Shown here: one piece after another, positions 7,428 to 58,480 of the stretch
Position numbering within the stretch: the stretch's first letter is position 1
How the letters are laid out: every line of letters begins with the position of its first letter
Assembly (NCBI RefSeq): GCF_910592395.1
Contig: NC_088310.1
Span: 15,385,501 to 15,449,500, forward strand
Length of the DNA: 64,000 nucleotides
Source: Lineus longissimus
Taxonomy: Eukaryota; Nemertea; Pilidiophora; Heteronemertea; Lineidae
Direction of reading: 5' to 3'
Notes under the pieces: generated by a model
What the model saw: only the letters and a program-made list of their open reading frames with translations
Told to the model about the DNA's origin: nothing
Databases searched by the model: none
Translations under genes and position numbers: made by a program

Positions 7428-7471
7428 TATATGCCAGTGAGTTAAATGTGCACGATGATTGAACTACATTA

Positions 7472-16203: not shown

Positions 16204-16240
16204 ACCGCTTTCTTTTGCATAGTAACTACTTAGATAAAAA

Positions 16241-17275: not shown

Positions 17276-17361
<86 letters not shown>

Positions 17362-23111: not shown

Positions 23112-23138
23112 TATACATAAAGCTAGTCACACAATCTA

Positions 23139-23594
23139 GTGATACAACCATATATACGCAATGAAAGTTGATAACATCTTCATGATGTAGACGTTTATTT
23201 ACACTATATACATATTCCACGATCGATTTCGGTTCACTCGAACCCTCATCAGGCGGTATACAAGACTTAGAATTTAGAATTTAGAAACACCCAATTGTCA
23301 ACTCAAGGGTTGTCATATTTTCTACAACTATTCTAAACACCCAATTGTCAACTCAAGGGTTGTCATATTTTCTACAACTATTCTAAATTTAGCTCACTTA
23401 TAATTACTCAAGCATTGCATAATGTATAATAGTATGTATGTCACCAGTCTATGGTTCTCATTCAGTCTTGTATACCGCCTGATGAGGGTTCGAGCGAACC
23501 GAAATCGATCGTGGAATATGTATATAGTGTAAATAAACGTCTACATCATGAAGATTTTAGCAACTTTCATTACGTATATATGGTTGTATCGCTA
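23139..23594. mobile_element. Foldback element with ~128-bp inverted arms
   Basis: The left arm (23139-23268) and right arm (23465-23594) are near-perfect reverse complements, from GTGATACAACCATATATACG to the inner CCGCCTGATGAGGGTTCGAG block. The spacer holds two tandem copies of a unit of about 50 bp (CACCCAATTGTCAACTCAAG...). The whole can form one long hairpin. It lies just past the stop codon of the coiled-coil gene. The inner part of each arm contains a CTGATGA...GAAA arrangement around a small stem, discussed in the findings. No protein is encoded. Confidence 0.85.
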
Positions 23595-23927
23595 TCTGGA
23601 CTCCCTCCCCAAGTTATACACAATCTAGTCTTCACTAGTCCAAAATGATAGGTCACAGTCTTTGACCATTAGTCAAATCAAAGCATTTATTTAATCAATC
23701 AAAGCCAGTCACACAATCTAGTCACAATCATTGGCCATTAGTCAAATCCAAGCATTTATTTCATTAATCGAGAGAAAAAAAATCATATTTATATCATGAA
23801 CTATGTTTATTTGACAATAAATTCAAAGAAATGTTCAAAGTAGAATTATAATTCTGTGGTGCAAGTTTTAAAGAAAAAACACCCTGTATAACGCAGGCCA
23901 GTCTATTTCATTCTCAGAAATAGTTCT

Positions 23928-25227
23928 TCAATGCGTCCTAATAGCATTTGGATTGTTATTCCTCGTAACAAACTCAGTAGTCACAGCCCTCATTGGCACA
24001 ATGTCAACTAATCGATCCTGAATCTTATCCAGCCATTTGTCATCAAATGCGTCGCCTTCCAATTCGCACAAATTATGAAGTGTACAGCAGGCTATGAAAA
24101 GATCTGGGACATCTTCGTTGTTAAAATCAATGCGTTTAAGTAGACGCCTCCAACGGCCTTTCAAGCGCCCAAAACTGTTTTCCACTACCATTCTGTTTTT
24201 GCTCAGTTGGTAGTTAAAGTTCTTTTGCTTCTCTGTAGTTCCTGTGGTTTCTGGGTATGGCTTCATAATCCAGTGTAGAAGAGGATAAGCGGGATCTCCC
24301 AGTATTACAGGAGGTAATGTAGCACCGTTGACATTTACAGAGACATCATTCAAGTATCCATGCACCTCAAACTCTTTGAATAGATCAGAATATGCCAAAA
24401 CACGCGCATCATGAAGACTCCCTGGCATCCCAACGCACAGATCTCGAAAACAATACCGATCATCAACAAATGCTTGGCAATTGTAGCTGTAATAACATTT
24501 TCTATTGTAGAAATCTGTGTGGTATTGAGGAGGTGCCATGATTGGAATGTGGGTGCCATCTATAGCCCCAATACTGTTGGGAAAACCCCACTTTTCTTTG
24601 AACCTGTCCATGATGTCATAAGCCTCCTCTGATGATGGCAACTGGATCAGTTGAGGTGTTAGTAAAGATACAATGGCTTGAACAACATCCTTTACAAATA
24701 TTGAAAGACTAGCACGAGATATACCAAATAGGTCCGCCACAATTTCCAATTCACCGGTTCCAGCAAGAGTCCTCAATACAGCAGCCACCTTTTGATCAAC
24801 CGGCATGCAGTTACGCATAACAGTATCCTGCTTCTCTAGTTGAGGTCTCAGCAGTTCACAGAGCTTGTCAAACGTTGCCCGGGACATCCTGCAATTGAAA
24901 GTAGATCTTGTTTTAGTGAGGGATGACCGGTAAACGAAGAATGCAATGACACATCGAATAAATTGCTGATTACTAACAGAATATATTCAGCGTTCAACCT
25001 AAAAATAGCATCAAAGCATTTGTCCATGTATAGAAAATAGATTATTTTTGTAAACCTTCTACATGTACTTTCTATTTTTGTAAAACTTAATATAACACCA
25101 GCCTAGTTGTTACTTTTTTTCTAATTTGATTGCTCACCTGAATTTTCTACGCCACTGTTTATCATTATATCTCGCTTTTGCAATCAGCGTCCACCACACA
25201 GATGTCCGTGGTTCAGTCCATAAAGAC
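23928..25227 (-). CDS. PIF/Harbinger transposase (HARBI1/DDE_4 type), two exons, apparently intact
   Basis: Exon 25227-25138 (SLWTEPRTSVWWTLIAKARY, then DKQWRRKF) ends CAG|GTGAGC; exon 2 begins at 24888 after a TTGCAG acceptor and restores the frame as K-F-R-M-S-R-A-T-F-D-K-L. Counting from the ATG at 24887, the DDE blocks are SIGAIDGTH (D110), VILGDPAYPLL (D198) and VVENSFGRLKGRWRRL (E236), followed by FIACCTLHNLCE. These are the conserved motifs of HARBI1-like endonucleases, which act in the nucleus on TIRs and make 3-bp duplications. There are no stops or frameshifts. A further 5' exon probably exists upstream of 25227. The convergent coiled-coil gene at 20.5-23.1 kb is its likely partner. 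The element's TIRs were not identified. Confidence 0.9.
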
Positions 25228-26538: not shown

Positions 26539-27745
26539 CTATTTGCAAGTCGGTCGCCAATTGTCCAGAGTTACACCATGGGCTAAACGAAGTTTGTCAG
26601 CGTGAGTGCGATATGTTCCACCTTCTCGATCCAACTGGATAGTGACAGTGAAATCCGAAGCTACCTCTTGCACCAAGTACGGTCCACGCCATGGTAGATG
26701 ACGATCCCCTTTAAATGTCTTTCTGGGATTAAAGTACCAAACGAAGTCACCCGGTTTGATAGACTTATAGATAAATTCAGCTGGCTCAAATTGTTTCTTT
26801 TGGACTCTTTGAGCGAACTTGAGATGGTTGCGAGCAAGAGCATAGGCTTTGTGAAAGCATTCCTCCAACTGCCTGATGTAAGCTGGCACAAAGGCCTCAG
26901 ACTCGGATGGTTTGGAGTACAGGAGATCCAGTGGAACTTTCTTTTCCCTCGCCGTCAACATATAATGTGGCGTTTCTCCAGTGCTATTATGTACAGAGGA
27001 TCTATAGGCCATGAGAAATAAAGGCAACATCGAATCCCAGTCTCCAACAGATTCGCGGTGGTCATAAATATACGTTTTCATCATGGATTTAAGGATTTTA
27101 TTAAAATTTTCCACAAGGCCATTGCTCTTGGGATTGTAAGGAGTGGTCAAGCTCTTGTTAACACCAAACTTTTGAAGAAGAGAAGCATAGAGGTGTGATA
27201 CAAACTGGGGTCCTCTGTCACTATGGAGGAGGTACATACATCCAAAGCGAGAGATTAATTCCCTTATGATGGCGTTGCAGACTTTCGTGGTCTCCATTGT
27301 CTTAAGAGGAGCTGCCTCCACCCATTTCGTGAAGTTATCCTCCATTGTAAGTACATAGCTGAATCCTCGAACAGTCTGTCTCAAAGGGCCGATTATGTCT
27401 ACGGATACTCTTTCAAAGGCCTCTCCAAACAGTTGTTGGGTTAAAGGGACACAACGCTTCTTGTGAGGATGTTTCATTACGTTGCATGGCTCACAGTGGG
27501 AAATAAAGCGCATGGTATCACGCCTCCAACCGACCCAGTAAAATCTTGCTTTCACCCGTTCAAATGTCTTTTGCATGCCAAGATGTCCTGAAGCTGGATC
27601 AGAGTGTAATTTCTCCAACACTTGATACCTCACAGTTCTCGGTAATACTAATTGCTTCCTGGTGGGCTTTCCTTGGACCTCTAATTGAGATGGGCGGAGG
27701 TTTGTCAGTTGGAATTGACTGTTGTTCCCTTTGTATTGCTGCCTG
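26539..27745 (-). pseudogene. Gypsy integrase
   Basis: The integrase inserts the retroelement cDNA into the genome. The frame is open from about 27745 (EVQGKPTRKQLVLPRTVRYQ) to the stop at 26539. Counting from 27633, a zinc-binding region (histidines about 10-17, then C47-x2-C50) precedes the catalytic core with D79 (VDIIGP), D139 (HSDRGPQF) and E175 (VENFNKIL), giving DD35E. The C-terminal part has GDFVWYFNPRK and WRGPYLVQEV, typical of the gypsy GPY/F module. The core is complete; the link to RNase H is broken by frameshifts around 27700-27810. No stop lies inside the domain. Confidence 0.9.
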
Positions 27746-27774
27746 AGATCTGGTAGTCACTGCCGCACAATCCA

Positions 27775-28210
27775 TCATGAGCCAGTCAACCGTCTCTCGA
27801 TAGACTCATCGGTGTCTTTGGTATGTTGACAAGGGGGGATATCAGTGTTTTCTTTTGCCTGGAGTTTTCTGGGCTTTCCTTTTGGATAAGATTTAGATAC
27901 ATCAGAGGGTGCTTCGTCCGTCCTCCCACATTGTTGACAAGGTAAGCGACTCATGACATCTGCGTTAATGTGCTTACGACCAGGTCGGTGGACAACGTCA
28001 AACACGAACTGTGACAGGAAAAGTTGCCATCGTTGGATCTGAGGTTGGGCATCGGTGAGGGCGAGCATATGGCTGACCGCCGAGTTGTCAGTTCTAATCA
28101 GGAATCTTCGACCATAAAGATAAGGTTTAAAATGCTGCACCGCTTTAACGACACCAAGAAATTCCCGCTTAGTAATACAATACTGACGTTCCGAGTCAGA
28201 TAGTGCAATC
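27775..28210 (-). pseudogene. Gypsy RNase H, N-terminal part deleted
   Basis: RNase H removes the RNA strand during reverse transcription. The remaining part reads LSDSERQYCITKREFLGVV, then YLYGRRFLIRTDNSAVSHML and FVFDVVHRPGRKHINADVMS, which contains the later catalytic residues (T-D-N, and D in N-A-D). The upstream RT frame ends at ALIIAPV followed by TGA, and the usual D-x-D-A-S segment of about 40 residues is absent, so a deletion with a frame change joins the two. The enzyme would be inactive. Confidence 0.85.
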
Positions 28211-29315
28211 AGACCGGTGCAATTATCAATGCACCTTTCAAGTGCTGAAATGAAGCTTCATGATCTGCAGTCCAAATCAGATCACTCTTTGCTTTTGTTA
28301 GTTCGTATAATGGGGCGACAATAGTGCTCATGTTTCTAATGAACCTCCTGTAATAACCGACTAGGCCCAGGAACTTCCTAACTTCTGTCCTTAGTTTCTG
28401 ACGAGGTACACCAGCTAATGTAGGCCACGATTGTATGGCGGCTATCTTATCACCCAATGGTTGGAGACCTTTCTCTGATATGCGGTGCCCAAGATACTAA
28501 ACCGATGACTGGAACAGAATGCACTTGCTAGGCTTTATTTTCGAATTTGCACGCTCTAGTCGTTCTAGCACTTTCTGCAAATTATGCAGGGTTTCCTCAA
28601 ATGTTTCTCCGAAAATTAATACGTCATCAAGGTACAAAAGACATCGTTCCCACTGCAATCCACGTAAGACATTCTCCATGAGGCGTTCAAAGGTCGCCGG
28701 GGCATCACACAATCAAAATGGTAGCACAGTAAACTGAAATAAACCCTTTTTGGTCAAAAATGCGATCTTCTCTTTGTCTGATTCAGACTTTAGGGGCACT
28801 TGCCAATAGCCAGCTTGAAGATCAAGCGTACAAAAGAACTTCTTGCCATGGAGTGAATCGACACAATCGTCAAAGCGAAGAATCGGAAAGCTGTCAGCCT
28901 TGGTAATGCTGTTCAATTGGCGAAAGTCTATACAAAATCTACTTGTGCCATCCTTTTTGGACACCACCACCGGAGCACTAGCCCAAGGACTGTTTGCGTC
29001 CTCCATTATTCCACGCTTTAACTCATCGTCAACTGCAGCGTCGATTTCTCGCTCTTTTGCCCAACCATGTCTTCTCAAGGGTAATCTAAAAGGCTCCGCA
29101 TCCCCGGTATTAATCTCGTGGGCAACCAAGTTGGTTCGTCCAAGCTCCGTTGAGGAGGCAGCGAAGGTTGTCTTGTACTGGATGAGGAGAGAAGCTAACT
29201 TCTGCTTCTGTTCGGCTAACAAATCTCCACTCGACTTTTCATAGAGAGAGATCAGATGTTCTGGGATGTCATCTTCAAGTTCTTCCAACGGTCTCACGGC
29301 AGAACAATCCGCGGA
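28209..29315 (-). pseudogene. Gypsy reverse transcriptase, two in-frame stops
   Basis: One continuous frame (minus) carries the RT: LKRGIMEDANSPWASAPVVV, DGTSRFCIDFRQLN, FCTLDLQAGYWQVPL, LFQFTVLPF, CDAPATFERLMENVLRG, RCLLYLDDVLIFG (the YxDD catalytic box) and KFLGLVGYYRRFI. TGA replaces the glycine codon expected in LPF-G-LCDAPAT (about 28713). A second stop (TAG) lies before YLGHRISEKG (about 28494). Both look like single-base changes; no frame is lost across them. Upstream the frame connects with the protease through one further TAG at 29316-29318. Confidence 0.9.
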
Positions 29316-30062
29316 CTAGGTGGCAAGAACTGGACAAAGTGAAGTAAGACAGCATGATGATGTTTCATTTTTGCTGAGTGTCTCCGCCGGAAACGCATAG
29401 CCAACTACTGTTCCTTTAGGTATGATAATTTCCTGGTCTAGGGGATTAAAAAGTTGAACTGGGGTAGCACATTGTTTTCTAGACTGGTAGGTGACAGACT
29501 TCGCTGGCAATACATTGTATTTTTGTACAAAGTGAATATTCGGTTCCAGCATCACCTCTTCACGAGCACGAAACGGACTATTCAACCTGGCTGTCACCGC
29601 TACTTCTGCCCCAGGTGGTAGCTTTAAGCTGGTTGTTAGACTCACTGAATGCGGCAGAAGTTGGTGTTTACTACCATGCATGGGATATTCATGCCCCTCA
29701 AAAGTGTAGGTATTGGATGTCATCTTCAAATCGCATTGGAATCTGGACATGAAGTCTATTCCCCATATGCCATCACATCCGTTCATGTTGGTCACCAACA
29801 GATCTGCAACAAATTTTGTGTCATGAATCCTAATAGGCATCGACACTTGTCCCATGATATTCATCCTGAATTCACCATCAGCCATGAGGACATCTTCTTG
29901 CTGCTTTTGAAGCGGGGGTCGAAACTTCTTAGGTATCCTGAAATATGCCCTTGACGAAAGAAATGAAGTCGAGGCACCTGAATCTAGAAGAAAGCAAGCA
30001 GGCATACCATTTAAATAAGTCCCAATGAACTCTCGCGACACTCTGGAGCCACATTTGGCCAC
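29316..30062 (-). CDS. Gypsy aspartic protease region
   Basis: This is the retropepsin-type protease that cuts the Gag-Pol precursor. The active-site motif is FLLDSGASTSFL near residue 25 (D-S-G), followed by VLMADGEF and, further on, IWGIDFMSRF, the flap-distal signature of gypsy proteases. The C-terminal 100 residues (LKLPPGAEVAVTARL, then EIIIPKGTVVGYAF) are the linker commonly found between protease and RT in Ty3/gypsy elements. The start used is the first codon of the open frame at 30062; in the element it would be translated as a fusion with Gag or RT. The frame is intact up to the TAG that precedes RT. Confidence 0.85.
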   Translation of the reverse strand: MAKCGSRVSREFIGTYLNGMPACFLLDSGASTSFLSSRAYFRIPKKFRPPLQKQQEDVLMADGEFRMNIMGQVSMPIRIHDTKFVADLLVTNMNGCDGIWGIDFMSRFQCDLKMTSNTYTFEGHEYPMHGSKHQLLPHSVSLTTSLKLPPGAEVAVTARLNSPFRAREEVMLEPNIHFVQKYNVLPAKSVTYQSRKQCATPVQLFNPLDQEIIIPKGTVVGYAFPAETLSKNETSSCCLTSLCPVLAT

Positions 30063-30109
30063 ATTTAGTTGCTGGGCTTCACCATGTCCATCGGCTCCAA
30101 ATTCACGGA

Positions 30110-31651
30110 CATGGCCTATTGGTTTCCCTGATCAACATTTTGTGCACCCTGTGAGACACCCTGGGATCCCGGACTGCCATTGTTGGCGTAAGTAGAATCC
30201 ATATGTCGCTTGACATATTGACATTCCCTCCAGAGGTGGTCAGGAGACTGGCACACGTGACATCATTTATCCACCGTGTTCAAGCGCCTATCATTCCCAT
30301 CATACCTATAATTCCGGTAATCTCCACGACCGCCACGGTTATAGCCTCCGCGTCCTCTGCCACGTCCTCTTGAGTTACCAGGACCACTATGGCCACTAGG
30401 TTGGGAATATTCCCCGTTCAACACAGCCGACTCGTCCAGTGCGGCTACAAGAGTGAGGGTAGGCCTGTCAATTACCGGCTGATTTTTAGCCAAGAGATGA
30501 TTCTCATAAGACTTAGCGTGCATGACGATCTCTTCTAAAGATTTGTCCTTGAAAGCGTACAGCTTATCGCCAAGGGGTGTGTCACGCAATGCCAGGTAAA
30601 AGTGGATCCCTAGGTCTGGTTGAAGTTTTCCATAAGCACGTTTAGAATACAGACTAATTCGAAACGCGAGGTCGTCCAAAGATTCGCCAACTTGAAGCCT
30701 AACATCACGCATGTTGGTCATCCAGACTGATCTTTCGCCCACGTAGTGCTGTTCCAAGGCATGCACTAAACTTTGGTAAGTGACCACTGTCCCGGATAGA
30801 TCCAAATTTGCTAGTACCTTGGAAGCACGCCCCTCAAGCTTTTCACGAAGAGCAGACAGCTCGTCCGCATCACTCCATCCACTTGTTATTGCATTGAAAT
30901 TTGCTATGTAAGCTTCTACATCAATCTTGGAATCGTCGAACTTTGGGATCTTTGGATGTCTGTTGCTACTGCTGGTGTGTCCGTCAGGGCCAAAAGAGCA
31001 GTTGGTGTAATGATTGACAACCTGAGGTACTGCTGAATCCATTCCGCTTCTCGCCTCCGAAGGTTCACGGAGTTGATCGAATACTTGTGGACTTGGCTGA
31101 TGTCTTGGGAGATTGTCCTGGGTGCTACTCTGAATCGCTGGGATGTAGTGATCCTGCAGCTGTGTCGCACTTGTTTCCCGAAGCACTGGGCGAAATTGGG
31201 GGTCTGGGTGTTGTCTAGCATCATGATATTCCTCCTCATCTATCCCTACCATTATGGGCCTGGTAGGAGCATTCAAAGCTCTCCGCCCTCGACTACGTGC
31301 AATAGGGCTGAGTGGTGTCGAAGTTATGGGCTGTAGACCTCGATTGACCAATGTTGTGTCCATGGACACTTGCTCATATGATGTCCTATCCCCGAGACTT
31401 AAAGCGGAGAACACACCGGATAGTTTCTTCTTAACAGTTCCAAAAATACCCCCTATTTTATCCAAGGTCATCCATCCTTGGCGAGTATCTTCTACCGGTT
31501 GTCGGTTTACTATCTGTGGTGGCTCCTCGTTGTCTTCTGCAGCACGTGCCTGCTGTCTCGGCTGTAATACAGGCACAGCCGCCGGCAATGCCCTGCCACG
31601 CAATACCATTCCAGCTTGCCTCCCGGGATGCCGAACATCCTCATCTGCCAT
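30110..31651 (-). pseudogene. Gypsy Gag with CCHC zinc knuckle
   Basis: Gag forms the particle that packages element RNA. The ATG at 31651 (MADEDVRHPG) is chosen over the upstream TTG in the same frame. The matrix-like N-terminus is variable; the capsid region is HPKIPKFDDSKIDVEAYIAN, then LREKLEGRASKVLANLDLSG and RDVRLQVGESLDDLAFRISL, a retrotrans_gag-type helical domain. The nucleocapsid part is an R-G-G-rich tract (RGRGRGRGGYNRGGRG). A TGA at about 30263 interrupts the frame directly before CHVCQSPDHLWREC, a normal C-x2-C-x4-H-x4-C knuckle, which continues in frame. Apart from that stop the gene is open. Confidence 0.88.
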
Positions 31652-32053
31652 GGCCAAACAGAGATGGACACTACAAAATTTTAGAGGGAAATTATGGTAC
31701 TATGATCAAAACACAGACAAATTTGACACACTCACGCACACTCCCACCATGCGCCAGACACTATCCTAAAACAGAAATGCATTACCCCTAGTACGCACAT
31801 TCAATAGTACATGTCAACAGGGCCACAGTAAAGCATGGAAAATGTATACATAAACAATGAATGAGTGACCTATATAATGACGCGATGGTAAAGCATGCAT
31901 ACAGGTGAACAACAATAATGCTTGTAATAATAGCATGTAAACAACACTATCCTAACACATATGAAATCAAGAACTAATTGTCCCTGAAAAGAATTTATGT
32001 TTAGGTATACTCAGAATGTTTATCCAACTTGCACAAAAACAATCCCGAGTCAT

Positions 32054-42276: not shown

Positions 42277-42378
42277 ATAGGACATTGCCCCCCCCCCCCC
42301 CCGGTGCGCTTGGATGGAGCTAGCTGGACGTTTGAGCTCGTGATTTGACCTAATCTTCAAGGTCACTGGGGTCGTTAC

Positions 42379-42536
42379 TTTTTATATTGCCCAAGTTGTA
42401 ATTTGACTCAGGACAAATGTACTCAGTTGTTACTCCACAGTAGCTCAATTTTCCATCTTAATATGTTACTCAAGCTGTAACTTGACTGGGTATTGCTGTA
42501 CATATTTTAGTTAGAAGTAGTGTTACTAATTTTACT
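42379..42536 (+). repeat. Direct repeat left of the Kolobok insertion (partner at 52193-52336)
   Basis: The segment TTTTTATATTGCCCAAGTTG ... TAGTTAGAAGTAGTGTTACT recurs in the same orientation on the other side of the Kolobok element, with about 20 bp deleted in the right copy and a few substitutions. A shorter piece of the same repeat (CCCAAATTGTAATTTGACTT) touches the right TTAA. It belongs to the older element, not to Kolobok. Confidence 0.75.
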
Positions 42537-42844
42537 GGAGTACTTTATAGTGTGTAGGCCCTACATATTGAATCTTTCCTTGAACTGTTAAAGTTGGTTT
42601 AAGTGTTCTTCACTGTTATTGAAGGAGATAGTCTGTATAGTTTGGGTATTGCTTGAATTGCGATTCATTCAAGTTGTGATTTAGATAACTTGTTAAAGGA
42701 TAGCTCCTGGAATAAATCACTACAGCGATAATCGGGAAAACTGACGCACCTGCATATTCTGTATATCATTATTATTCCAATATAGGACTGTTTATCGTAC
42801 AAAAATTTGCGTTTGTACCAATAAAGGTGTTTTCAATCCACTAA

Positions 42845-43243
42845 GAGACAAGACCACAATTGATTTTTAAAGCCTTTTAGGAGTTAAATTGTCAATGTTT
42901 GACCGCGACGCATCAAATACTGCGTGGGGTTGTGAATCTGAAATTTAGATTATGTTATTCCGGACAGTCAGGCAAGTAAATGGTGAAAAATAAACTGGTA
43001 GTTGACCACGGAAATTTTTTGATAATCGACAAATTAGACAGACTTTGATATTTCCACTCTTTTCAGCCAACTGGCAGAAAAAACTCACCAGTTTATTTTT
43101 CACCATTTACTCGCCCGACTGTCCGGAATAACACTATCTAAATTTCAGATTCACAACACCACGCATTCTTTGATGCGTCGCGGTCAAACATTGATAATTT
43201 AACTGCTAAAAGGCTTAAAAAAAATCAATTGTGGTCTTGTCTC
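42845..43243. mobile_element. Palindromic MITE, copy E1
   Basis: The ends are GAGACAAGACCAC and GTGGTCTTGTCTC. The two halves are reverse complements over about 155 bp (for example CAATGTTTGACCGCGACGCA on the left and TGCGTCGCGGTCAAACATTG on the right), leaving a centre of about 90 bp. It is non-coding and able to form a long hairpin. Confidence 0.85.
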
Positions 43244-46093
43244 CATTTACACTACATTTTGGGTCAATATAGTGAAAAATTTGAATATGCTCAAATCACT
43301 CTAATTCATTTAGAATATTGTATTGCTGATGATTTAAGGTCAAAACAAGCTAAAATAATGAGAAAAAAACTTAATTTGACCCAAATAAGAGTCAACCTAA
43401 CCCCGGTCTAAGTTCGGTTTCATTTTTACAAGTCTTGCTGTGTTGCCATTCATTTTGTAATTTCTTGTAAGGCCTTGATTCTGAAAGTTGTGCCCTAAGC
43501 AGCAAATATATTCCTAAATCACATCCTAAACTTTCAGCTCCATAGCTTGCTTATTCTGGCCAGGGCTGGTCTTTGAATTTGGTGCTGTTGGCTGCAAAAT
43601 CATGAGTTTTTGTCCTCTTTCGTCGCTTTTGGCACAGTGTACCACTCTTTGAAATGTCTCTCATTTCTTCAAAAATGTCCAGATATGACTTTACGTTGTT
43701 GGAGAGTTGTGGGATGTCATGTACATTAGTTTGAACAAATTCTCAAAATGTTTACCCCTGAAATGTACCTTCATTGAGACAAGACCACTAATGAATATTC
43801 ATAGTTTGGAGGGTCGAGGCCTATCAATTAGACGAGTGCATGTTTTTTACTCTCAAGTACATATTTGGAGAGGTATTGAAAAAATATTTGCTGTGGCAAG
43901 TCTACAGATGTGAATAAATTGTTTGGTAAAAAAATAATTTTGAATTTCCACAACCTGGCCATAGGGGGGTGGTTCAAATTTGGAGTGAAAATGGCCGATA
44001 TGGGTAAAAATGTCCACTTGTGTCAAACTTGTCAATTTAAAAAAAAATTTCCGTGGTCAATCACCAATTTAAATCGCACCAGTTACTCGCAAGACTAACC
44101 CGTATATCATATCCGAATTTCAGTTTCACTACTTGACGCATTCTTAGATGCGTCGCGGTCAAACATTGACAATTTAACTGCTAAAAGGCTTAAAAAATCA
44201 ATATTGTGGTCTTGTCTCCATTTACACTACATTTTGGGTCAATTAAGTGAAAAATTTGAATGTGCTCAAATCACTCTAATTCATTTAGAATATTGTATTG
44301 CTGATGATTTAAGGTCAAAACAAGCTAAAATAATCAGAAAAAAACTTAATTTGACCCAAATATGAGTCAACCTACCCCCGGTCTAAGTTCGGTTTCATTT
44401 TTACAAGTCTTGTTGTGTTGCCATTCATTTTGTAATTTCTTTGAAACTACTTAGGCCTTGATTCTGAAAGTTGTGCCCTAAGCAGCAAAGATATTCCTAA
44501 ATCACATCCTAAACTTTCAGCTCCATAGCTTGCTTATTCCGGCCAGGGCTGGTCTTTGAATTTGGTGCTGTTGGCTGCAAAATCATGACTTTTTGTCGAT
44601 TTTGTCCTCTTTCGTCGCTTTGGCACAGTTGTACCACTCTTTGAAATGTCTCTCATTTCTCCAAAAATGTCCAGATATGACCTTCCTTTGTTGGAGAGTT
44701 GTGCGAGTAACTGGTGCGATTTAAATTGGTGATTGACCACGGAAATTTTTTTTTAAATTGACAAGTTTGACACAAGTGGAAATTTTTACCCATATCGGCC
44801 ATTTTCACTCCAAATTTGAACCACCCCCCCTATGGCCAGGTTGTCGAAATTCAAAATTATTTTTTTACCAAACAATTAATTCATATCTGTAGACTTGCCA
44901 CAGCAAATATTTTTTCAATACCTCTCCAAATATGTACTTGAGAGTAAAAAACATGCACTCGTCTAATTGATAGGCCTCGACCCTCCAACCTATGAATATT
45001 CATTAGTGGTCTTGTCTCAATGAAGGTACATTTCAGGGGTTAACATTTTGAGAATTTTTTCAAACTAATGTACATGACATCCCACAACTCTCCAACAAAG
45101 GAAAGTCATATCTGGACATTTTTGGAGAAATGAGAGACATTTCAAAGAGTGGTACACTGTGCCAAAAGCGACGAAAGAGGACAAAAACTCATGATTTTGC
45201 AGCCAACAGCACCAAATTCAAAGACCAGCCCTGGCCAGAATAAGCAACCTATGGAGCTGAAAGTTTAGGATATGATTTAGGAATATCTTTGCTGCTTAGG
45301 CACAACTTTCAGAATCAAGGCCTAAGTAGTTTCAAAGAAATTACAAAATGAATGGCAACACAACAAGACTTGTAAAAATGAAACCGAACTTAGACCGGGG
45401 GTAGGTTGACTCATATTTGGGTCAAATTAAGTTTTTTTCTGATTATTTTAGCTTGTTTTGACCTTAAATCATCAGTAATACAATATTCTAAATGAATTAG
45501 AGTGATTTGAGCACATTCAAATTTTTCACTAAATTGACCCAAAATGTAGTGTAAATGAAGGTACATTTCAGGGGTAAACATTTTGAGAATTTTTTCAAAC
45601 TAATGTACATGACATCCCACAACTCTCCAACAAAGGAAAGTCATATCTGGACATTTTTGGAGAAATGAGAGACATTTCAAAGAGTGGTTCACTGTGCCAA
45701 AAGCGACGAAAGAGGACAAAAACTCATGATTTTGCAGTCAACAGCACCAAATTCAAAGACCAGCTTTGGCCAGAACAAGCAAGCTATGGAGCTGAAAGTT
45801 TAGGATGTGATTTAGAAATATCTTTGCTGCTTAGGGCACAACTTTCAGAATCAAGGCCTAAGTAGTTTCAAAGAAATTACAAAATGAATGGCAACACAAC
45901 AAGACTTGTAAAAATGAAACCGAACTTAGACCGGGGGTAGGTTGACTCATATTTGGGTCAAATTAAGTTTTTTTCTGATTATTTTAGCTTGTTTTGACCT
46001 TAAATCATCAGAATACAATATTCTAAATGAATTAGAGTGATTTGAGCACATTCAAATTTTTCACTAAATTGACCCAAAATGTAGTGTAAAATG
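43244..46093. repeat. Mirror-symmetric array: four copies of segment B with MITE copies E2 and E3
   Basis: Segment B (about 480-530 bp; CATTTACACTACATTTTGGG ... GGAGAGTTGTG) occurs twice in plus orientation (43244-43775 and 44219-44704) and twice inverted (about 45019-45555 and 45556-46093). MITE E2 spans 43776-44218 between the first two. E3, cut at its left end, spans 44705-45018 at the centre of symmetry. Copies differ by only a few percent. Frames such as 44740-44534 or 45665-45865 are fortuitous because they occur in only one copy. The axis of symmetry lies near 44.7-44.9 kb. Confidence 0.8.
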
Positions 46094-46539
46094 GAGACAA
46101 GACCACAATTGATTTTTTAAGCCTTTTAGCAGTTAAATTGTCAATGTTTGACCGCGACGCATCAAAGAATGCGTCAAGTAGTGAAACTGAAATTCGGATA
46201 TGATATACGGGTTAGTCTTGCGAGTAACTGGTGCGATTTAAATTGGTGATTGACCACGGAAATTTTTTTTTAAATTGACAAGTTTGACACAAGTGGACAT
46301 TTTTACCCATATCGGCCATTTTCACTCCAAATTTGAACCCCCCCCCCCCCTATGGCCAGGTTGTCGAAATTCAAAATTATTTTTTTTACCAAACAATTTA
46401 TTTATATCTGTAGACTTGCCACAGCAAATATTTTTTCAATACCTCTCCAAATATGTACTTGAGAGTAAAAAACATGCACTCGTCTAATTGATAGGCCTCG
46501 ACCCTCCAACCTATGAATATTCATTAGTGGTCTTGTCTC
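46094..46539. mobile_element. Palindromic MITE, copy E4
   Basis: Bounded by GAGACAAGACCAC (46094) and GTGGTCTTGTCTC (46539). The right half is the same variant as E3 (GTGCGATTTAAATTGGTGAT ... ATGAATATTCATTAGTGG). A C run (about 46338-46350) differs in length from the other copies. The following gene starts 165 bp downstream, so its promoter may lie in or next to this copy. Confidence 0.8.
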
Positions 46540-46704
46540 CTAAACACAGAGTTCATGGAGGGTGCCATTTTTTCACTTTTTTCGCGATCTCTCCTCCAAA
46601 ACCGGAGAGCCTTGACACCACGTGTGCAATTCACCGCATGTCAGTATTGTCACAATAGCAGTCAGCTGATTGATATTTTGAGATCGTGTTATTGTATTGT
46701 TATC

Positions 46705-47783
46705 ATGGCGGCTTCAGATGATGAAAGCTACGTTGACAGCAGTGACACTTCGATGAGCAGCGGGAGTTATGAAGATTTGGATGTAGGGGGGAATGTTGGT
46801 GTACAGGGCTACCAGTTTGAGCCGGAATATGAAGAGGGGGGGGGCTTGCTGCTATGGCTCAAGCTATTGAAGATGCAGCTGGACCCGATGTTGATGGCCA
46901 AAATGAGGATGTGGATGGGCCCGCCGATGAGGACCGGACCACCCTCAATGTTGAGGAGTGGTGCAAATGCACACACTGTGATATTATGGCTACACATTTT
47001 GAGTGCATGTGCTGCCATGATCAGGATGTAGTGGCAGCCAGGTTTGAGGACCCAGACAGTGGGGACGTTTTGATGGACTGCATCACAGACCACCAGGACT
47101 TCGTCCCCGTCTGCCTGAACAGGGCAGTGATCGAAACAACCATGGCCCGGCTACATCACGCCTATATCGAGAGGAGGGATGACAACACTTCGACAAACAA
47201 GTAAGGAGCTCAGAGTCATGGGCTGTAGCAAAATTAAAGTCAAAAGAAATGAGCAATTTTATTTTTTCCCATAACAGGCCGAAATTTTTTTAATTCTCTT
47301 TGCTTCAACAAAATTTGGCAATGGCATAACATTCACAGTGAAGTCATTCTTCTAGAGGATTGCTAGAGAATAACTTCTTCTCTAACCCCCACCCCATCAC
47401 TTTTTACATGGGGGCCTCAGTAATGAGAAGCAACTGCATTTGGCATGATTAGAACTGATTTTATGTGAATAACAAGCAATTTTATTGAACATTCATGGTA
47501 AATGTAAATATAATACTAGTGTACAAGATGAACTGAATAGGTTCCTCATATAATAAATATTATTGGAGTTGAATTTTCTTCTTTCAGGTGCCTCAGGCAT
47601 GGGGCCTACCGTCAAATGATCTTTTGGGCCCATGGGTTCCTCGGCCGGAAAGTTCATCGTGTCATCCCAAGTTGTGTGGTGAAGCGTATTCGGGGGGGGG
47701 GGGGGGGGGCATTCCTAGCTGCAGATGACCAATATGTTGGCTTTCTTGAAGCCAATGTGGATGACCTTGACCAGTCAGACTGA
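46705..47783 (+). CDS. P2X7 ballast-like (P2RX7 C-terminal) domain protein, two exons
   Basis: The ATG at 46705 (MAASDDESYVDSSDTSMSSG) opens an acidic, serine-rich leader. The domain follows: NVEEWCKCTHCDIMATHFEC, MCCHDQDVV, DCITDHQDFVPVCLN, then after the intron CLRHGAYRQMIFWAHGFLGR, HRVIPSCVVKRIR and DQYVGFLEAN. Clustered cysteines, A-Y-R-Q-x-I-x-W and VIPSCVV are the signatures of the intracellular zinc/palmitoylated 'ballast' domain of the P2X7 receptor, which also exists as stand-alone genes in invertebrates. Exon 1 ends AA|GTAAGG at 47200; exon 2 starts at 47588 after TTTCAG and completes the lysine codon. A 9-G run (46836-46844) shifts the frame in exon 1, and an 18-G run in exon 2 adds glycines in frame. 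No channel domain is present. It lies between the Kolobok TIRs and faces the transposase. Function is unknown. Confidence 0.75.
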
Positions 47784-48290
47784 ATTTCTTCACGCTCACT
47801 ATTTATTTGGTATCCTAGTCCAAAAACTGCTGACACCTTTTATCTAAAGAAGAGGACATAGTGCAATCAAGGACATTTTTCAATTGACTTCCAGTCCAGA
47901 AGACAGTTACCTCAGAAATATTTCACTTTTAGAATACTATGCACTGTAATCTCTCCTGGGTGACATCCCCTTACTGTAATTGATCTCTAACCCGGGCCAA
48001 CCATGAGACAAGGGCCTGTGATAAACTTTAGAAAAATGCATTTCAATATCATTGATAAGTCTATTTATGAAATGGTCCAAACATGAATTGGCCCCAGAAA
48101 GCTATACACTTGATGTTATACAGATTCAATAATGAGTAATAAAGCATTCTTATTCAAAGTTTAACAAAAGAGACTAAATCATTTCATTATTTGATGGCCT
48201 GAAAGACCAATAAAATGTGTTTTTTAGCTTCAAAATTTCCCCCAACCCAACCCACTCTACATGTCGTGTCTGTTCAATTCCAACCTTCGT

Positions 48291-49800
48291 TCATTTGATG
48301 AACCTAGAGTACCGGAGCGACTCTTCAAGATCGGGTCTTTCAACAGAGGTTATTCTCTGTGGAAGGATTGGCTCCAACACCGGTGTGGGTTTTGTACCAG
48401 ACATGACATGTTCAACCACAGTTGTCATCATTTTTGGGAGGTAAGCATAATCCTTCTGCTCTTTTACATTTTTTGCAACCCAATGGTCCCGTCCCTTGGG
48501 ACAACTGTGGTAATATCGTGGCTTCCCTGACTTGTTGATGATCTGTTTGCGCTCAGAATGTTCATTGTGATCCAATGCAACTAGTTGGGTCCTTGCAACC
48601 ATGCCCTTGTAAGAAAAATGCCTGCTCTTTGGCATGTATTTTATCATCTCTGAATGATTCACTTCTAGTATTCTTGTGTGGCAGAAACTACTCAGTTGAC
48701 CAACATCTGCCAGTAATCTCTTGTCATTGACAACAGTTGCCAATGCTTTTAATGAAGGAGAGTCTGGTTCAAGCCATTTCTTTTTTCTAGACACTTCGTC
48801 TGTGAGGGGGGCATGGTTACAAGCATGAAACATGGTTTTGTCCCCCCATTCATGGATATCCTGGACATGATACAGGATGGATGTCCACATCTCTTTCAGC
48901 AACACAGGGTCACCCTCACAAGACGCAGCTGAAAACCAGAGGTGAACAATGATAGCCTTGATCCATGGACCAAGAGGGCGACAAGCGGTCAGTAGCCAAA
49001 ACTCCAACTGTAATTTTAGAATGTTTTAAGCTGTCAATGCAGTCGATGAGGCCCTGATCTTTCTCCATGTTGCAGCTCTTCAAATCAGGTCTAACCTGTT
49101 TCAAACTGAAATCAATCACCTTCTCATTGGCGGCCCCCATAACGGTATATGTACCATACTTTGCACTGTGTCCAGGTGAGTCATACTGTCCATCGCCAAT
49201 GACAGTAATTGACCTGTCCTGCAGGGCCTGAACAAGCTTGGACCTGTGCTCTCTCCAAGCTTCATCTACCACAGGAAAGAGGTACAAATTATGTTTGCCA
49301 TGAAATGTTGATTTTGTAATAAAGCGGATGTTCATTAGTTTGGCAAATTTCATTACAGCGGTGAAAGGATTTCCAGTGAAGAGAATTGAGGCAGCTAATG
49401 AAATGTTCCAAACTGGAGGCTTGTTACAAACTGGCTGGTAATGCCAGTAGAAGACATGGTGGTTTTTGCAAACCAAACGAAATGTGACTAAAGAGCCACG
49501 CTGAATTTGATTCTTACAAATAGTTCCAAACTTCTGGCCACAGTCCGGACAAGTGCCATATGATAGGAATATTTCTAATAGTTTACCCTCGTACACAATG
49601 AATTTCTCCTGCTCAATGTAATTACCAGCACTATTGGAAAATTGGTCCTCGTTTAATATATCAAAGTGTTTTGCACAATCATCCACCTTTCTTGCTGTGG
49701 TAGGAAGCTCGAAGTCAGAGTCGTCACTGGTAACATCAGACTCTGAGGTAGCAGCTAGTGCATCATCTACATGTAAATTACTTTCTCCTCCAGGCAGAAG
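48291..49800 (-). pseudogene. Kolobok transposase core, internal deletion
   Basis: The exon opens at 49800 after a TTCCAG acceptor (LLPGGESNLHVDDALAATSE). It contains CPDCGQKFGTICK, a zinc-ribbon-like segment, then ITVIGDGQYDSPGHSAKYGT with the first catalytic aspartate, VIDFSLKQVRPDL, MEKDQGLIDC and ITVGVLATDR with the second. The next expected segment (histidine, then F-D-x-W-H and about 40 residues) is missing; in another frame LGPWIKAIIVHLWFSAASCE follows at once, then EWGDKTMFHACNHAPLTDEV and MVARTQLVALDHN. These are Kolobok motifs in order. The deletion with frame change at about 48960-48990 would abolish activity. Confidence 0.85.
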
Positions 49801-50520
49801 CTGGAACAGAATTTTTGGTTTTAGTTAGAGACAATATCAAGAGCAAAGCGATCACTCACATTCTGGGGGGGGGGGGGGGGGGGGGTTATTCATGAACACA
49901 TTTAGCTCCATTATACCGTACTGTACATGTACCAGAAAATAAATCTTGTATAACAAGCTAACCACATACCTACACATACATCACATGTACACTGTTTGTT
50001 GGTAATGGTAAGTAAATTCCTATTCCTCAAAGCCAGTAAGCAGCATTGGTGACAATGAGCGTCTTTGAGAATAACTAACATGGCATGATTGTAGCACATC
50101 TGCTGAGCTAATATCAGGACTAGGCTGAGGAGGTTGCAAGTCTGCTTCTCTTGTACTTTCACTGCTTGATCTTGGTCGGAGGGTGGAATCTTGATCCGGT
50201 TGATTAGCCTGAAAAGTGGGAAATGTCGCATTACTACTAGTACATCAAAGCTTTTGAATGTTTTTATTACTGAACAGGTATACTGTAAGCCCATTATTTG
50301 AATCAATAAATGGATTGTTTTTTTCTTTAGTAATAGTATATTCATCATTTGGGGTACAGTAGGACATTCTGCATTTGCCTCATTGTATGCTGTATGCTTA
50401 CTGCTAATGTATACAGTACTTTTAATAGGTAAACATGATTCATTTCATGAATTACCATGGTTATTCTATTTCTATTGTTACATCCAAATCTTTAGAAGTT
50501 AGGATTCATTTTACAATTAC

Positions 50521-51688
50521 CTTACTATAGGAATGATCATGCTGTACGACCTCCACTGAGCCATACAACATGCCATCTATCCTCTGCATGAATGCCATAT
50601 CCCAGTCTGTTTGGGTATCAACATCATGCTTCACTGGTTGTGGGGTGGGGATGACATCGGCATCTGGTGGCGTGGGTGGCTCGGTATCATTTTTTCTCCT
50701 TTCTTCCTAAGCGTTGGGGTGTTGCTGACTTCACTTGCTTTGCTGGGACTGTCTTGAAGTAATGACTGTACAATCTGGAAGTAGAGCAGGACTATTAGTA
50801 AATCAATGTAAATACACAGTAAGAGTATATACTTGAGTGGCTGATGGAGCGGTGAGGGTAGCCCGCAACATGCCAAGCCCCATGTCTGTCGGGGTATGAT
50901 GATTCATATAACTAAGGCACACAGGCTATGCCACAGACTCAAAAGTAGAGGGGGCTAGTGGTGGTACTGGTTTTTATATCATTATAGTGGTTTGGCAAGG
51001 AAAAGGTCTGTTTAGATTTCCATGGTTTTGCTGGTCATGCTGGGCTGAGCCTAGAGCCGAGAGACTGCATATTCTGAAGGTCTAGGGCTTGCTCTACTGC
51101 CTTCGTTTAGAGCTAGGCCTAGGTCATATTCGTTTTAGGCCTAGGCCTAGCGGTAGGCGTATGGCTCGGCCTTCCTATATTATAGTCCTAGGGCTACTAC
51201 ACGACTAGGCTACTTACATTTTTTTGGGTTAGCCTTTGAATCCTGTCAACACTTCTTGGTCGTTTCGGAGTTCTAACCTTGACTGATGATGCAGGAGTTG
51301 AAATCAAGGCACTCCCACTTGCACCGTTGGCGGAATTCGATGATGAGGACGGGGTGGGCGAGGGCACGGGGAACTGGCCAGGCTTCCAAAGGGTTGGCAC
51401 TCCATCAGCTCTAATCCGTGTTTTCGGGGTCTTCCTTCCAAATGCTTTGGCCTTCAGCTCACCTTCAGATTTAAAACAGTCTTTCTCGAAGTGTAGCTCG
51501 CAAACTTGGTCATTCTTTGTGAATGTTTTCTTTCTTTTGTCCAGGGCAGCCCGCCGAATCGCATGCAACCATTTCCTAGAAAGTTCTTCATTTTTCAGTG
51601 GCCACTGTTTAAATCGAATTCCACTCATCACACCGGACATATTCCCACATCCTGGGACCATGCACCGAGGCAATTTGCATTCAAGCAA
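50521..51688 (-). CDS. Kolobok transposase 5' exons with THAP domain
   Basis: The first exon (51688-51218) encodes a THAP zinc finger: C9-x4-C14 (CMVPGC), IRFKQWP, W40 and C63-x2-H66 (VCELHF), then GVPTLW in the place of A-V-P-T-(I/L)-F. THAP domains bind the transposon ends. A serine/proline tail (PSPTPSSSSNSANG) follows; the exon ends AAT|GTAAGT. A second exon from 50774 to about 50521-50525 carries IVQSLLQDSPSKASEVSNTP and, after a one-base frame change near 50700, HDVDTQTDWDMAFMQRIDGM. A further exon near 50206-50030 is possible but not certain. This is the N-terminal part of the transposase whose core lies at 48291-49800. Confidence 0.8.
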
Positions 51689-52192
51689 TCAATATATTAC
51701 GCGAATGTCCAAATAAAACGAAATTAGAATGATTTAATTGCGTGAAATCTTGAGACATGCGAGAGAGATGTGAATCGCGAAGAAACGGATATGGATTCAC
51801 ACATGGATTCACACACTGCGCACGCACGAAAAGCGGTGACAAGCCCATAATATGCATGATCGGTGCTTCGGAATTTCAGCCAATCACTGCCATTGCACAC
51901 ACCGCGTCATCACCGAGGGAAATTTGACTCAAAATGGCGTCGTTCATGTCAGTAAAATAAGCACTATTAATATCAATTTTTCATCCTGAACTATTATATT
52001 TCTTCCACTTTCAAAAGGTTTGTGGTAAAGAGGAATACTCATTTAATATATTTCCATTGGTTTCGTTCAAAAAGGCTGCCAACGATTTATTCCAGGAGCT
52101 ATCCTTTAAGCCCAAATTGTAATTTGACTTGGATAGGTTTATATGGGGTGTACGTGAACAGTTAGTTGGTTCGAGTCGTTTAATAATTTATC

Positions 52193-52336
52193 ATTACTTT
52201 TTATATTGCCCAAATTGTAATTTGACTCAGGTGTTAGTCCACAGAAGCTCAATTTTCCATCTCAATATATTACTCAAGCTGTAACTTGACTGGGTATTTC
52301 TGTACATATGTTAGTTAGAAGTAGTGTTACTAAGTT
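52193..52336 (+). repeat. Direct repeat right of the Kolobok insertion (partner at 42379-42536)
   Basis: Same orientation as the left copy; it shares ATATTGCCCAA(A/G)TTGTAATT, TCAAGCTGTAACTTGACTGG and TAGTTAGAAGTAGTGTTACT. It is internal to the 12.1-kb element. Confidence 0.75.
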
Positions 52337-54109: not shown

Positions 54110-57076
54110 TATCTACTAACGTTATATTTGTGACATATGTGCTTAAGGCTGCCGCTGAACGAGGATCTACTACCGTGTACTGCCAGCCCTAAGCACATTC
54201 TAACAACAACACTGCTAGACCTTTCCATCATATGATAAAAGTTCACGACCCTGCGTTCTAACAAACTCTGGATTGTTCAGTCACCTATAATATGAGGCAG
54301 TAAAACATTGTGTGTCCGTCGTGGAATGTCCAAGGTACGTCGAATACATTTTCGCCAAGCCACATAAACATTATCGATGGTGGGCTTTGACAAATCCCAC
54401 AGTGAGCATCCATAAAAAGAGGTACAGTAGCTTTTAAATAAAGAGTATTTAACCATTGCTGAGGCATGACCGAATTGGGATAATAAAATATTTGTTTTCT
54501 TGTACAAATCGTTCACACTTGACTCAATTCGTATCCTATTTGATTCTGGCCCGATTGGTATGCCCAGGTGAATCTCCGATACACTGGGTTTAAGAACCAC
54601 ACCACTAAACTGAACCTCAATACCGGCAACATCCCGCATTCCAAACGCTAATAATGTGCTTTTCGCCGCATTAAACCTAACTTTAAACTCTATTGAAAAA
54701 TCATCGCATACATCTAAAAGTTTCCGTAGCGCAAGGAGAGATGGTGATAAAATGATAACATCATCTGCATAAGCGAAAGCAGCACAAAACAAATGCCCTA
54801 TGTGACACCCAAGTTTGGAATTCTTAAGACTAGCGAGCAGTTCGTCCAGGTACAGATTGAACAGGATCGGGGAAAGAACCCCACCCTGCTTGACACCATT
54901 GGAAACACTAAAAACATCTGAAGTATACACTCCCCATCTCACACGCATTTTCTGCGTCGTGTATATCGAAGCTAGAAGCCGGGCCACCAGTGGGCAAACG
55001 CCTTTCTTCAAGAGAACATTAAATAGCTTTGTGAAATTAACACAATCAAACGCCTTACTGGCATCCAACATAACACAGAACACGGGTGTATCACTTTCAA
55101 CATAGTACTGAATCACTTCATCTACCACAAAACCACATGTTGTTGTCGATGACCCTTTTTTGAATCCAAACTGTTCGTCACTAGATATAAGAGAGTCACC
55201 ATACTTGTGTAATATAACATAATCTAGGATCTTTCCAATGATACTGCTCAACGCTATACCCCGACAGTTCTCAGAATTGGTCAATGACTTTCGACCGTCC
55301 TTGGGGATTGGTACAATGGTGGACCTGGATATGGCGCCAGGTACACAGCCATGGTCAAACATCATATTCAACAGGAACGACAAGTATACCCTGAGCAGAC
55401 GACTACCATTTATATAATGATTGGACATAAGGCAGGGAGTATCATCGTTCTTGCCAGCCTTCAGACGACCGATACCCAGTGTAATGTCTTCAACAGAAAT
55501 ATGATGCGTATATCTACAAGTCCCAACTTGGCACGCTTGGGTGATTCCTTCCTGACATTTTTCATTAAAAGCTAATAGATCATTTTCTTGATAGGGAACA
55601 GAATTGTGAAGAGTTGAGAATTTGTGTTTGAAAAGGTTGCAAATTTTATCCCGTCCAGTAATTCCATCCATACTATTGGGATTCTCGGCATTTTTCTCTT
55701 TGACCCTTTTAACCTCACTCCAAAAATCAGCAGGTTTTTTGTCGCTCAAAGCACTGGCCAGTTTATTAGCTGATACTTTATTCCTATCTCTCTTTGCCTT
55801 ACGCACCGCTAGGTGATAACCAGCGCGCGTACGCCTGCGGATATCAGCAACATACCCATCTCTAGCTCTTCCATTGTCCTTCCACAGGTTGGGCCAGAAC
55901 ATAGCTGTTTCTCTTAAATGCCTAACTTCATCGTTCCATCCAGCAGTGCCATTATGATTCCGACCGTATATCCGCTCATCATTTGGTATACATCTATCAC
56001 CAGCCAACAGACAGGCATTAACAATGTCATCATGAAAAGAATCAATTTCATTAAAATGGTCCCGACACAGTCGATCATTACACCGCATAGCATTTAACGG
56101 AACATTTATGTTTGATAGCAAACCATCAAGCTCATTTCCATATTCTATCAAGTTCTCTGGAGTACTTTTCTCCCAGCATAACCTGCCTGTATTCGTCAAA
56201 TCTCGACCTAATTGAGGCTCAGAATTGCCCTCGTCCAACTTATCCACCGGACCAAACCCAGCCCTCGTGGGAAATTTGTATGAAATATGGAGACACGAAT
56301 GGTCTGAAAAATTATCTACAGAATGTGATACAGAATATGAAGTGATGAGATCCATCATGTGCTCTGGCATAAGAAAATGATCTACTAGTGACCTAGCACC
56401 TAGCATCTAACATCTTACTTTCAAAAGTGTAGTCAACTTGGGCCTTCAGAGACTGTAGACCACATCGAAATGATTCGGCCCTCATAAACTGTTGTAACTG
56501 TGTCGTGTTTGCCGAGTCCACACGAGTAAAAACTGTGTTCAAGTCACCACCAAGAATCACATATTTACAGTTAACAGATTCCATCAATTGTACCAATTCA
56601 TTTAGAACATCGCGATAGACCTGCGCCTCAGCAGCATTATCAACTGGCATATACACACTGATTAACAAAATATCGCCATTTATCGATTCAAAGTTCACCA
56701 ATACCGCACACACCCTGCGAGTGGCGCAATCAAAAATAACCGGGGTGACCCGTGCCCTAACCCCTGAGTTCCATAAAATAGCTGATCCCCCATACGGTCT
56801 CCCCTTCAAGAGTACCTTGTCATTCATTCCAGATCGTCCATGTACACACACAGGGCTACCTAAAGTACCTAAATCTTTTATCAGGGACTGAAATTGGTGT
56901 TCATAGAGCCAATGTTCCTGTAGAAACAAAAAATCACAGTTATTCACCAGTTTTGCGACATATTCCCGGCGTCCCGGGCCAACTCCATTGCTGTTGTATG
57001 AGGTTAGAGTCACGCAAGTCATCCCACAGATGACAAGAAAAACAATGTAGAAAGTTACTGTAGGCGTGTATTTCAT
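54110..57076 (-). pseudogene. LINE ORF2: endonuclease and reverse transcriptase
   Basis: ORF2 nicks target DNA and copies the element RNA onto it. The endonuclease begins TCVTLTSYNSNGVGPGRREY and contains LFLQEHWLY, GRPYGGSAILW, LLISVYMPVD and VILGGDLNT; its last motif (FSDHSCLHI) is reached only after a one-base frame change at about 56400. The RT frame (from 56406) has ENCRGIALSSIIGKILDYVI, DEQFGFKKGSSTTTCGFVVD, FCVMLDASKAFD (first acidic residues), NGVKQGGVLSPILFNLYLDE and AFAYADDVIILSPS, the Y-A-D-D catalytic centre. A TGA at 54277-54279 cuts the end, but coding similarity continues (QSLLERRVVNFYHMMERSSS) to about 54110. Confidence 0.88.
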
Positions 57077-58480
57077 GTACTGTCCCACGAGTAAGAAGAT
57101 TCCACGCCTCGTGGAGGGACATATTTCCTTACCCTGACTCCTTCTGGCCAAGGAAATTCATTGTTGAAAAGGTCCTTATATTGTTCAGCCGGTACCGCAA
57201 GTTTAAATGACTTATACTTGGCCTCTTCATGAGACACCAGTTCAAGCTCTCTCACCACACAATTATTATCCTCGATGAATTTCCTCAGGTCACTTTTCTG
57301 CGTACTCCTATCAACACGATAGATGAAGAGAAACCTACTAGGAGTCGGAGCTCCTCTGAACGCACCGCTACCATCACTTCGCGCATTCCCCTCTATAACG
57401 TTCCTCCTTTTTGTCTCTGCTCTTCGTTCCTTGCGTTAAATGTAACCGGGGATACGAAAGCCATTGTCACTCCCGTTAGCCATCCTACTGCTGTCACTTA
57501 GGCGGTCCACAGAGATATTGCTACCACTCGTGACGTCACATTAGATACAGCCGGAGGTTTCAGATACACAGTCTGGCGACCCGGCAGAGCACCGCCAGGG
57601 CGAAGCCCTCTGCCACTGGCAACACCACGTGAGCCTGGTTTAGGGGACAACCCCCTTTGTTTTGCAGCGTCTGCAAAAGTACATGCTGATGGTTCACAAA
57701 CATTTTGTTGCTGAATCGTCAAAAGACTGAATTTCCATATCACTCCAACCTTCACTATCTTTCGGTTTAGACATATCCTTCGTAACGTCCTGCTTATGCA
57801 GATCAGAAACTGACCGCTTAAGGATTGTATTTTCCCGCATGAGCAAATCTACACAGTCCTGAATTTTATCCGTTTTGTTCTCAATGTCCTTCATACGGTA
57901 GGCCATAGATCTTCCGGGTGAATCCTGGGTAAGTCACCTAGATCATAGGCTGATACAACTATTATCGGTAAGGCATTTCTAGCGTCGAGTCTGGTAAGAG
58001 CCCCTACTATGTCCATAACATTGGCCTCGTCTGCTGTTCTGGCAGTGGTGGACTTGCACATAGACTTTTTCCGATTATTTCTTGGTTACAGTTGTCCCAC
58101 AGGATATGTTTAGCTTGCGAAATCGCCTCGGACTTAAAGGCATCTAACACAACCTTTTTGATATTCTCAAGATTGGCGGACAGAATGCCATAGGCTACAT
58201 ACGACAGTTACGCATTTTTAATTGTCACCTTGGCCGTAGGCCTATCTTGCTTGCAATTTGCCACTGGTGCATCGACTTGTTGACCAGACTGTTCAGCCTG
58301 CTGAACAGCGGTGACATTTAATTCTTCATCCAAGTCATGCTCGCCTGTATCGTGTTCTCTACGGGTAGATTTCATTTCCGGACTTCCCAAACCATTCTGA
58401 GGGGAACGCTGGTCGCCTTTACATTTTTCACCTGCCTGCCTCGGCGTTTCCGAGAGTACCAGCCCTGCAAAATGTTCATT
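57073..58480 (-). pseudogene. LINE ORF1 (RNA-binding/coiled-coil), several frameshifts
   Basis: Pieces in changing frames follow the order of a LINE ORF1: MASKTINEHFAGLVLSETPR and a polar stretch (58490-58208), NLENIKKVVLDAFKSEAISQ, then TADEANVMDIVGALTRLDAR and LPIIVVSAYDLGDLPRIHPE (about 58050-57900), a coiled coil (MKDIENKTDKIQDCVDLLMR; 57906-57694), a basic/proline region, and an RRM-like C-terminus (SRFLFIYRVDRSTQKSDLRK, then HEEAKYKSFKLAVPAEQYKD and WPEGVRVRKYVPPRG) ending at 57073. The last part and the 'V-S-A-Y-D' block recur in ORF1 proteins of invertebrate LINEs. ORF2 begins at or just inside this end. Confidence 0.75.

Follow-up and report, generated by a model that had tools for sequence, protein, structure and literature searches.

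The closest described relatives of the element considered here belong to the Kol0 (Kolobok0) lineage of Kolobok transposons, which was presented together with its protein KolX by Kojima and Bao in 2022 (PMC9587614). In the available portion of that article, KolX is equated with the ballast domain, seven cysteines are conserved around two zincs, P2X7 is viewed as a P2X4-like gene joined to KolX, and Nanor and the P2X7 tail are both given as host uses of KolX. The Kol0 hosts listed there are vertebrates, annelids, cnidarians, and sponges, whereas the present element lies in the genome of a nemertean, Lineus longissimus, in a stretch of 64,000 nucleotides (contig NC_088310.1, positions 15,385,501 to 15,449,500) hereafter referred to as the window. 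It is a further, apparently broken copy of the known Kolobok-KolX partnership, and its family shares with Kol0 the TTAA duplications, the 5'-RR ends, the DDE transposase, and a separate ballast-fold KolX with conserved cysteines. One mobile unit carries two genes, one of which encodes the ballast fold, and the pairing recurs across families. The reading that is favored here, with a probability of roughly 93%, is that the window contains a decayed Kol0-type Kolobok, that KolX and the transposase have been inherited together, that KolX probably serves as an accessory protein, and that the P2X7 tail is a captured KolX. A first-pass annotation of the window had regarded the ballast gene as cargo; it is instead KolX, the second protein of Kol0 Kolobok elements (PMC9587614). 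The central idea, namely that the ballast protein is a Kolobok gene, is not new because it was published in 2022 in the same article, and the annotation's suggestion that a transposon could have supplied the ballast tail of a P2X gene was likewise already in print there.

Other known systems differ in one respect or another. Nanor and the "ZCD" invertebrate ballast proteins (Rump et al. 2020, PMC7016195) are also free-standing and occur across Metazoa, but in the accessible main text of that paper, from which the word stem "transpos" is absent, they are treated as an ancient protein family. KolobokP, KolobokE, KolobokD, and KolobokH are also Kolobok elements with an accessory protein, but these proteins are nucleases or a helicase. 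KolobokP, for which Lineus longissimus is named in the available text of PMC9587614, is characterized by long terminal direct repeats of ~450 or 660 bp. The window unit has no such repeats, and a KolobokP assignment was rejected because the two ends of the unit share no direct repeat of at least 60 bp. According to the same text, a few piggyBac families carry a KolX-like protein; most of its seven conserved cysteines are said to be missing, and these families belong to another superfamily, without 5'-RR ends. A search of the accessible literature for "KolX" returned PMC9587614 alone, and one pairing "Kolobok" with "P2X7" returned that article and one review (PMC9319628). KolX is not named in the accessible main text of a report on Xenopus Kolobok (PMC6004289). 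In the available text of PMC9587614, neither the convergent arrangement with genome-wide counts nor the correlated divergence was found, and no nemertean was seen among the members of Kol0.

The ballast profile PF20478 has at least 96 matches in the Lineus longissimus genome, counted exon by exon and thus not equivalent to 96 genes. With the window transposase as the query, a transposase match lies within 6 kb of 45 of the 96 listed ballast matches, and all 45 pairs are convergent; random placement yielded a mean of 0.77 and a maximum of 5. When three queries were employed (the window's own and those of loci L071 and L072, the last two having been picked beside ballast matches), 55 of the 96 were paired, again convergently in every case. 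The 133 merged transposase loci gave a mean of 0.86 and a maximum of 6 when placed randomly within the coordinate span seen per contig, and a mean of 1.48 and a maximum of 6 when shifted by 20-500 kb. Within 10 kb the pairs are tail-to-tail without exception, and within 30 kb 61 of 64 paired ballast matches are convergent. The expectation of the first-pass annotation that the pairing would be conserved in other copies is borne out by these counts and by the bounded units described below.

The protein distances of KolX and of the transposase are correlated, with r = 0.888 for 19 loci with both sequences, chosen from the 55 pairs, and r = 0.719 for 12 loci after thinning to a transposase difference of at least 30%; both profile models were built partly from the same sequences. 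Neither value was reached in 5000 permutations. Such a correlation is predicted by long co-inheritance and not by repeated sporadic capture. The view that KolX and the transposase travelled together across diverged families of this genome is supported by the nearness of the two genes, by their orientation, and by the correlation of their distances.

Within the family of the window copy, a 26-nt pattern comprising TTAA and the terminal inverted repeat (TIR) was searched for in the 391-Mb genome with up to three mismatches tolerated. It occurs at 36 forward and 37 reverse sites, as compared to 0 and 0 for the pattern read backwards. These 73 sites form 35 pairs, with three sites left unpaired. 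Twenty-six of the pairs are short (1.1 kb or less) and match neither gene, six are long and hold both, and three are long and hold neither, gene presence being judged from the listed matches and therefore a lower bound. All six units with a match to either gene hold both. The unpaired right end at C17:1590675 adjoins matches to both genes and is probably a seventh, damaged copy. The window copy was compared with five sisters that have identical ends, namely L061-L064 (5.8-6.3 kb) and L065, which at 9.4 kb includes another insert, and pairwise identities among the six are 90.4-99.8% over aligned stretches longer than 250 bp. Uninterrupted copies are ~5.8-6.0 kb in length and contain two convergent genes, the THAP/DDE transposase and KolX; the proposal that both belong to a single Kolobok unit is upheld by L061-L064, which hold both between the same TIRs. 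L061 has an internal duplication of ~270 bp covering the KolX start (unit coordinates 323-863), and the ~3.5-kb insert of L065 separates its THAP open reading frame (ORF) from the transposase core (unit coordinates ~4393-7850).

From 30 TIR loci, one copy of 1,403 bp and 13 distinct short ones (936-983 bp) were compared with L063; the former is counted among the long pairs and has an extra stretch within its first part. All 14 match its first 520-525 bp, its last ~328 bp, and a further 75-81 bp. Because both ends match L063 while the middle is gone, the short copies are internal-deletion derivatives. Copies lacking the ballast gene, in combination with ballast genes elsewhere that have no Kolobok ends, had been named in the annotation as evidence that would speak against it; on the first half of this, the 26 short copies with the same ends match neither gene.

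The coordinates of the features of the window copy are listed in Table 1. The left end (42693-42718) reads TTAA followed by AGGATAGCTCCTGGAATAAATC, and the right end (52084-52109) is its exact reverse complement followed by TTAA, precisely as the first-pass annotation had it. The unit ends AG...CT and thus follows the 5'-RR...YY-3' rule for Kolobok termini, which the accessible text of PMC9587614 contrasts with piggyBac; a piggyBac assignment was rejected in that piggyBac ends do not begin with 5'-RR. The TTAA duplication is exact on both sides in the window copy, L061, L062, L063, and L065, and has one mismatch in L064. The unit measures 9,417 bp from TTAA to TTAA because a foreign element is nested within it. 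The claim of one 9.4-kb unit accordingly holds for the ends, but 3,695 bp of it are not Kolobok. Sister copies L063 and L064 display the empty site. The interior of the insert consists of many inverted and direct repeats, with arms of up to 476 nt that are 97% complementary.

Table 1. Features of the Kolobok copy in the window.
Feature	Position	Strand	Remarks
Left TTAA target-site duplication	42693..42696	.	Window sequence
Left 22-bp TIR, starts 5'-AG	42697..42718	+	Window sequence; together with TTAA at 73 genomic sites, versus 0 for the control pattern
Nested 3,695-bp insert, not Kolobok	42845..46539	.	13-bp inverted ends (GAGACAAGACCAC), CTAA duplications; empty site in L063, L064
KolX exon 1	46703..47200	+	ATG at 46703; frame shift at poly-G 46836-46844; compared with P0001 and sister copies
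KolX exon 2 (RHGAYRQ...PSC...QYVGF)	47588..47783	+	Stop 47781-47783; 18-nt poly-G 47692-47709
DDE transposase core (PF20700-like)	48291..49824	-	Lacks ~115 bp including DxxH segment at ~48985
THAP-domain ORF of transposase	51197..51688	-	PF05485, E = 2.3e-13, residues 9-100 of ORF
Right 22-bp TIR	52084..52105	-	Window sequence
Right TTAA target-site duplication	52106..52109	.	Window sequence

The transposase of the window copy is encoded by minus-strand ORFs that include a predicted THAP DNA-binding domain, as in the Kolobok superfamily, and that also match the Mutator-like transposase profile PF20700 (3e-8). It reads GDGQYD where L061-L065 read GDGRCD. In L063 and L065 the core is an open frame of 549 amino acids (...YDVWHFAKS...), and the C/DxxH motif of Kolobok DDE transposases is present in alignment with three other families; the DxxH segment is gone from the window copy.

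The spliced product of the two KolX exons, taken in the frame that follows the first poly-G tract, matches PF20478 (P2RX7_C) with E = 7.7e-16 and 59 bits against a cut-off of 23.5 bits, and the ballast-domain assignment of the first-pass annotation therefore stands. The CxC..C...CC part of exon 1 lies in frame at 46833-47200. PF20478 is the only profile matched at E of 1 or less; the P2X channel domain PF00864, which is characteristic of the P2X7 receptor, is not matched. The name "P2X purinoceptor 7-like" is attached to a close database gene model, P0001 from Lineus longissimus (225 amino acids, 90% identity). Poly-G runs of 9 nt in exon 1 and 18 nt in exon 2 of the window copy correspond to shorter or mixed runs in the sister copies, with six G in L064 at the second place. 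Other long poly-G or poly-C runs in the window are located at 49865-49885, 46338-46350, and 42288-42302; such runs reflect either homopolymer growth or assembly error. Cys 86, Cys 88, Cys 91, Cys 102, Cys 103, Cys 125, and Cys 194, as well as Cys 136, are invariant among 12 chosen KolX sequences, and among 28 database proteins, some of them incomplete, only Cys 102, Cys 125, and Cys 194 reach 90% conservation. The cysteines of a putative dinuclear zinc site are thus present, their assignment to P2X7 positions being our own reading of the alignments. With its KolX bearing a ballast domain, the Lineus longissimus family conforms to Kol0 in this respect.

In the P2X7 receptor (PDB 6u9v, 8tr5, 9e3m) the ballast domain is the tail of a channel, whereas KolX is a small free-standing protein that consists of little more than a domain of this type and is without the P2X channel domain. 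The residues of the guanosine diphosphate site are only partly kept in KolX, with an arginine at the R546 place in 19 of 19 rows and a histidine after it in 16 of 19; by our own reading of the alignment, the R574 and K583 places are not conserved. PF00864 has 11 exon matches in the genome, at two loci only (C2:23.28 Mb and C7:7.18 Mb), and no listed ballast match lies near either, the nearest on the same contigs being at least 4 Mb away. The earlier suggestion that the ballast protein belongs to the transposon is borne out. The further statement that it is not a receptor relative is correct with respect to the channel, to which KolX is not homologous, but not with respect to the P2X7 tail, to which it is.

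As for the surroundings, a 112-nt repeat (93%) flanks the Kolobok at 42421-42532 and 52225-52336, the two copies having the same orientation and a spacing of 9.8 kb. Because it is found on either side, the Kolobok seems to have inserted into repeated sequence. To its right, at 54277-57157, two minus-strand ORFs (709 and 254 amino acids) resemble a non-long terminal repeat (non-LTR) retrotransposon reverse transcriptase and endonuclease. Minus-strand ORFs at 26539-31699 resemble an LTR retrotransposon set of gag, protease/reverse transcriptase, and integrase, and three ORFs at 15499-24986 (two plus, one minus) resemble PIF/Harbinger-type nuclease-like transposases. These three likenesses were judged by eye only.

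On the basis of what is known of the superfamily, the THAP domain of the transposase would bind the TIRs, and the element would move by cut-and-paste at TTAA. KolX would most likely be a cysteine-rich, zinc-dependent accessory that aids the element, for example by partnering with the transposase complex or by countering host repression. The short copies of ~0.92-0.98 kb, in which both ends are kept but the transposase core and the greater part of KolX are missing, were presumably mobilized in trans. The P2X7 tail would be a captured KolX, following the available text of PMC9587614.

Several observations weigh against this interpretation. Forty-one of the 96 listed ballast matches lie more than 6 kb from any transposase match, and some of these may be solo, decayed, or domesticated. 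Conversely, 79 of the 133 merged transposase loci, with lineages pooled, have no ballast match within that distance, as would follow if KolX is absent from other Kolobok lineages. The increase from 45 to 55 pairs rests on queries chosen beside ballast matches, and the pair counts include non-independent copies within families. Within this young family KolX is without significant constraint: the ratio of nonsynonymous to synonymous divergence (dN/dS) is 0.47-0.54 when L064 is set against L062, L063, and L065 (Fisher p 0.11-0.18). The window copy gives 0.69-0.95, and comparisons within the trio of L062, L063, and L065 give values that are ~1 or undefined; L061 was excluded for its internal duplication. 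Whatever KolX does in transposition is a matter of inference.

The lack of constraint among young copies is what would be anticipated if a host ballast gene had been captured once by this Kolobok family and simply hitch-hiked without a function in transposition. That explanation is very improbable and already largely refuted by the pairing counts and the correlated divergence, in that the convergent arrangement recurs in diverged families (45 of 45 with the window transposase as query, 55 of 55 with three queries) and the Kol0 lineage, as far as the available text of PMC9587614 shows, spans several animal phyla. More improbable still, and refuted by L061-L064, which hold both genes within the same TIRs but not the nested insert, is an arrangement whereby the two genes would belong to separate adjacent elements, with the TIRs bracketing nested, unrelated repeats; the 3.7-kb insert of the window copy speaks in its favor. 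A less remote alternative, although rather unlikely, is that KolX serves the element via the host (for example, against silencing or on DNA repair or nucleotide signalling) and not via the transposase. KolX is a separate gene with its own orientation, and Nanor and the P2X7 tail are described as its host uses in the accessible part of PMC9587614, but co-inheritance with the transposase is compatible with both possibilities. An action with the transposase is given about twice the weight of one on the host.

Beyond the favored reading of a decayed Kol0-type element with an accessory KolX, it can be tentatively suggested, at somewhat less than even odds, that the Kol0 transposition system has in KolX an obligate, co-evolving second protein, that the P2X7 tail kept part of its biochemistry as a zinc/guanine-nucleotide module formerly linked to transposition, and that the tail-to-tail arrangement is a conserved design. 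If true, this design might provide, for example, balanced or antisense-limited expression of both proteins. The counts from this one genome support the view, already in print, that free-standing "P2X7-like" ballast genes belong to transposons, and gene models from worm, sea cucumber, scallop, fish, and frog that bear the name P2X purinoceptor 7-like may be KolX copies rather than receptors. The Lineus longissimus family also offers a concrete system for asking what role the ballast domain plays outside of a channel.
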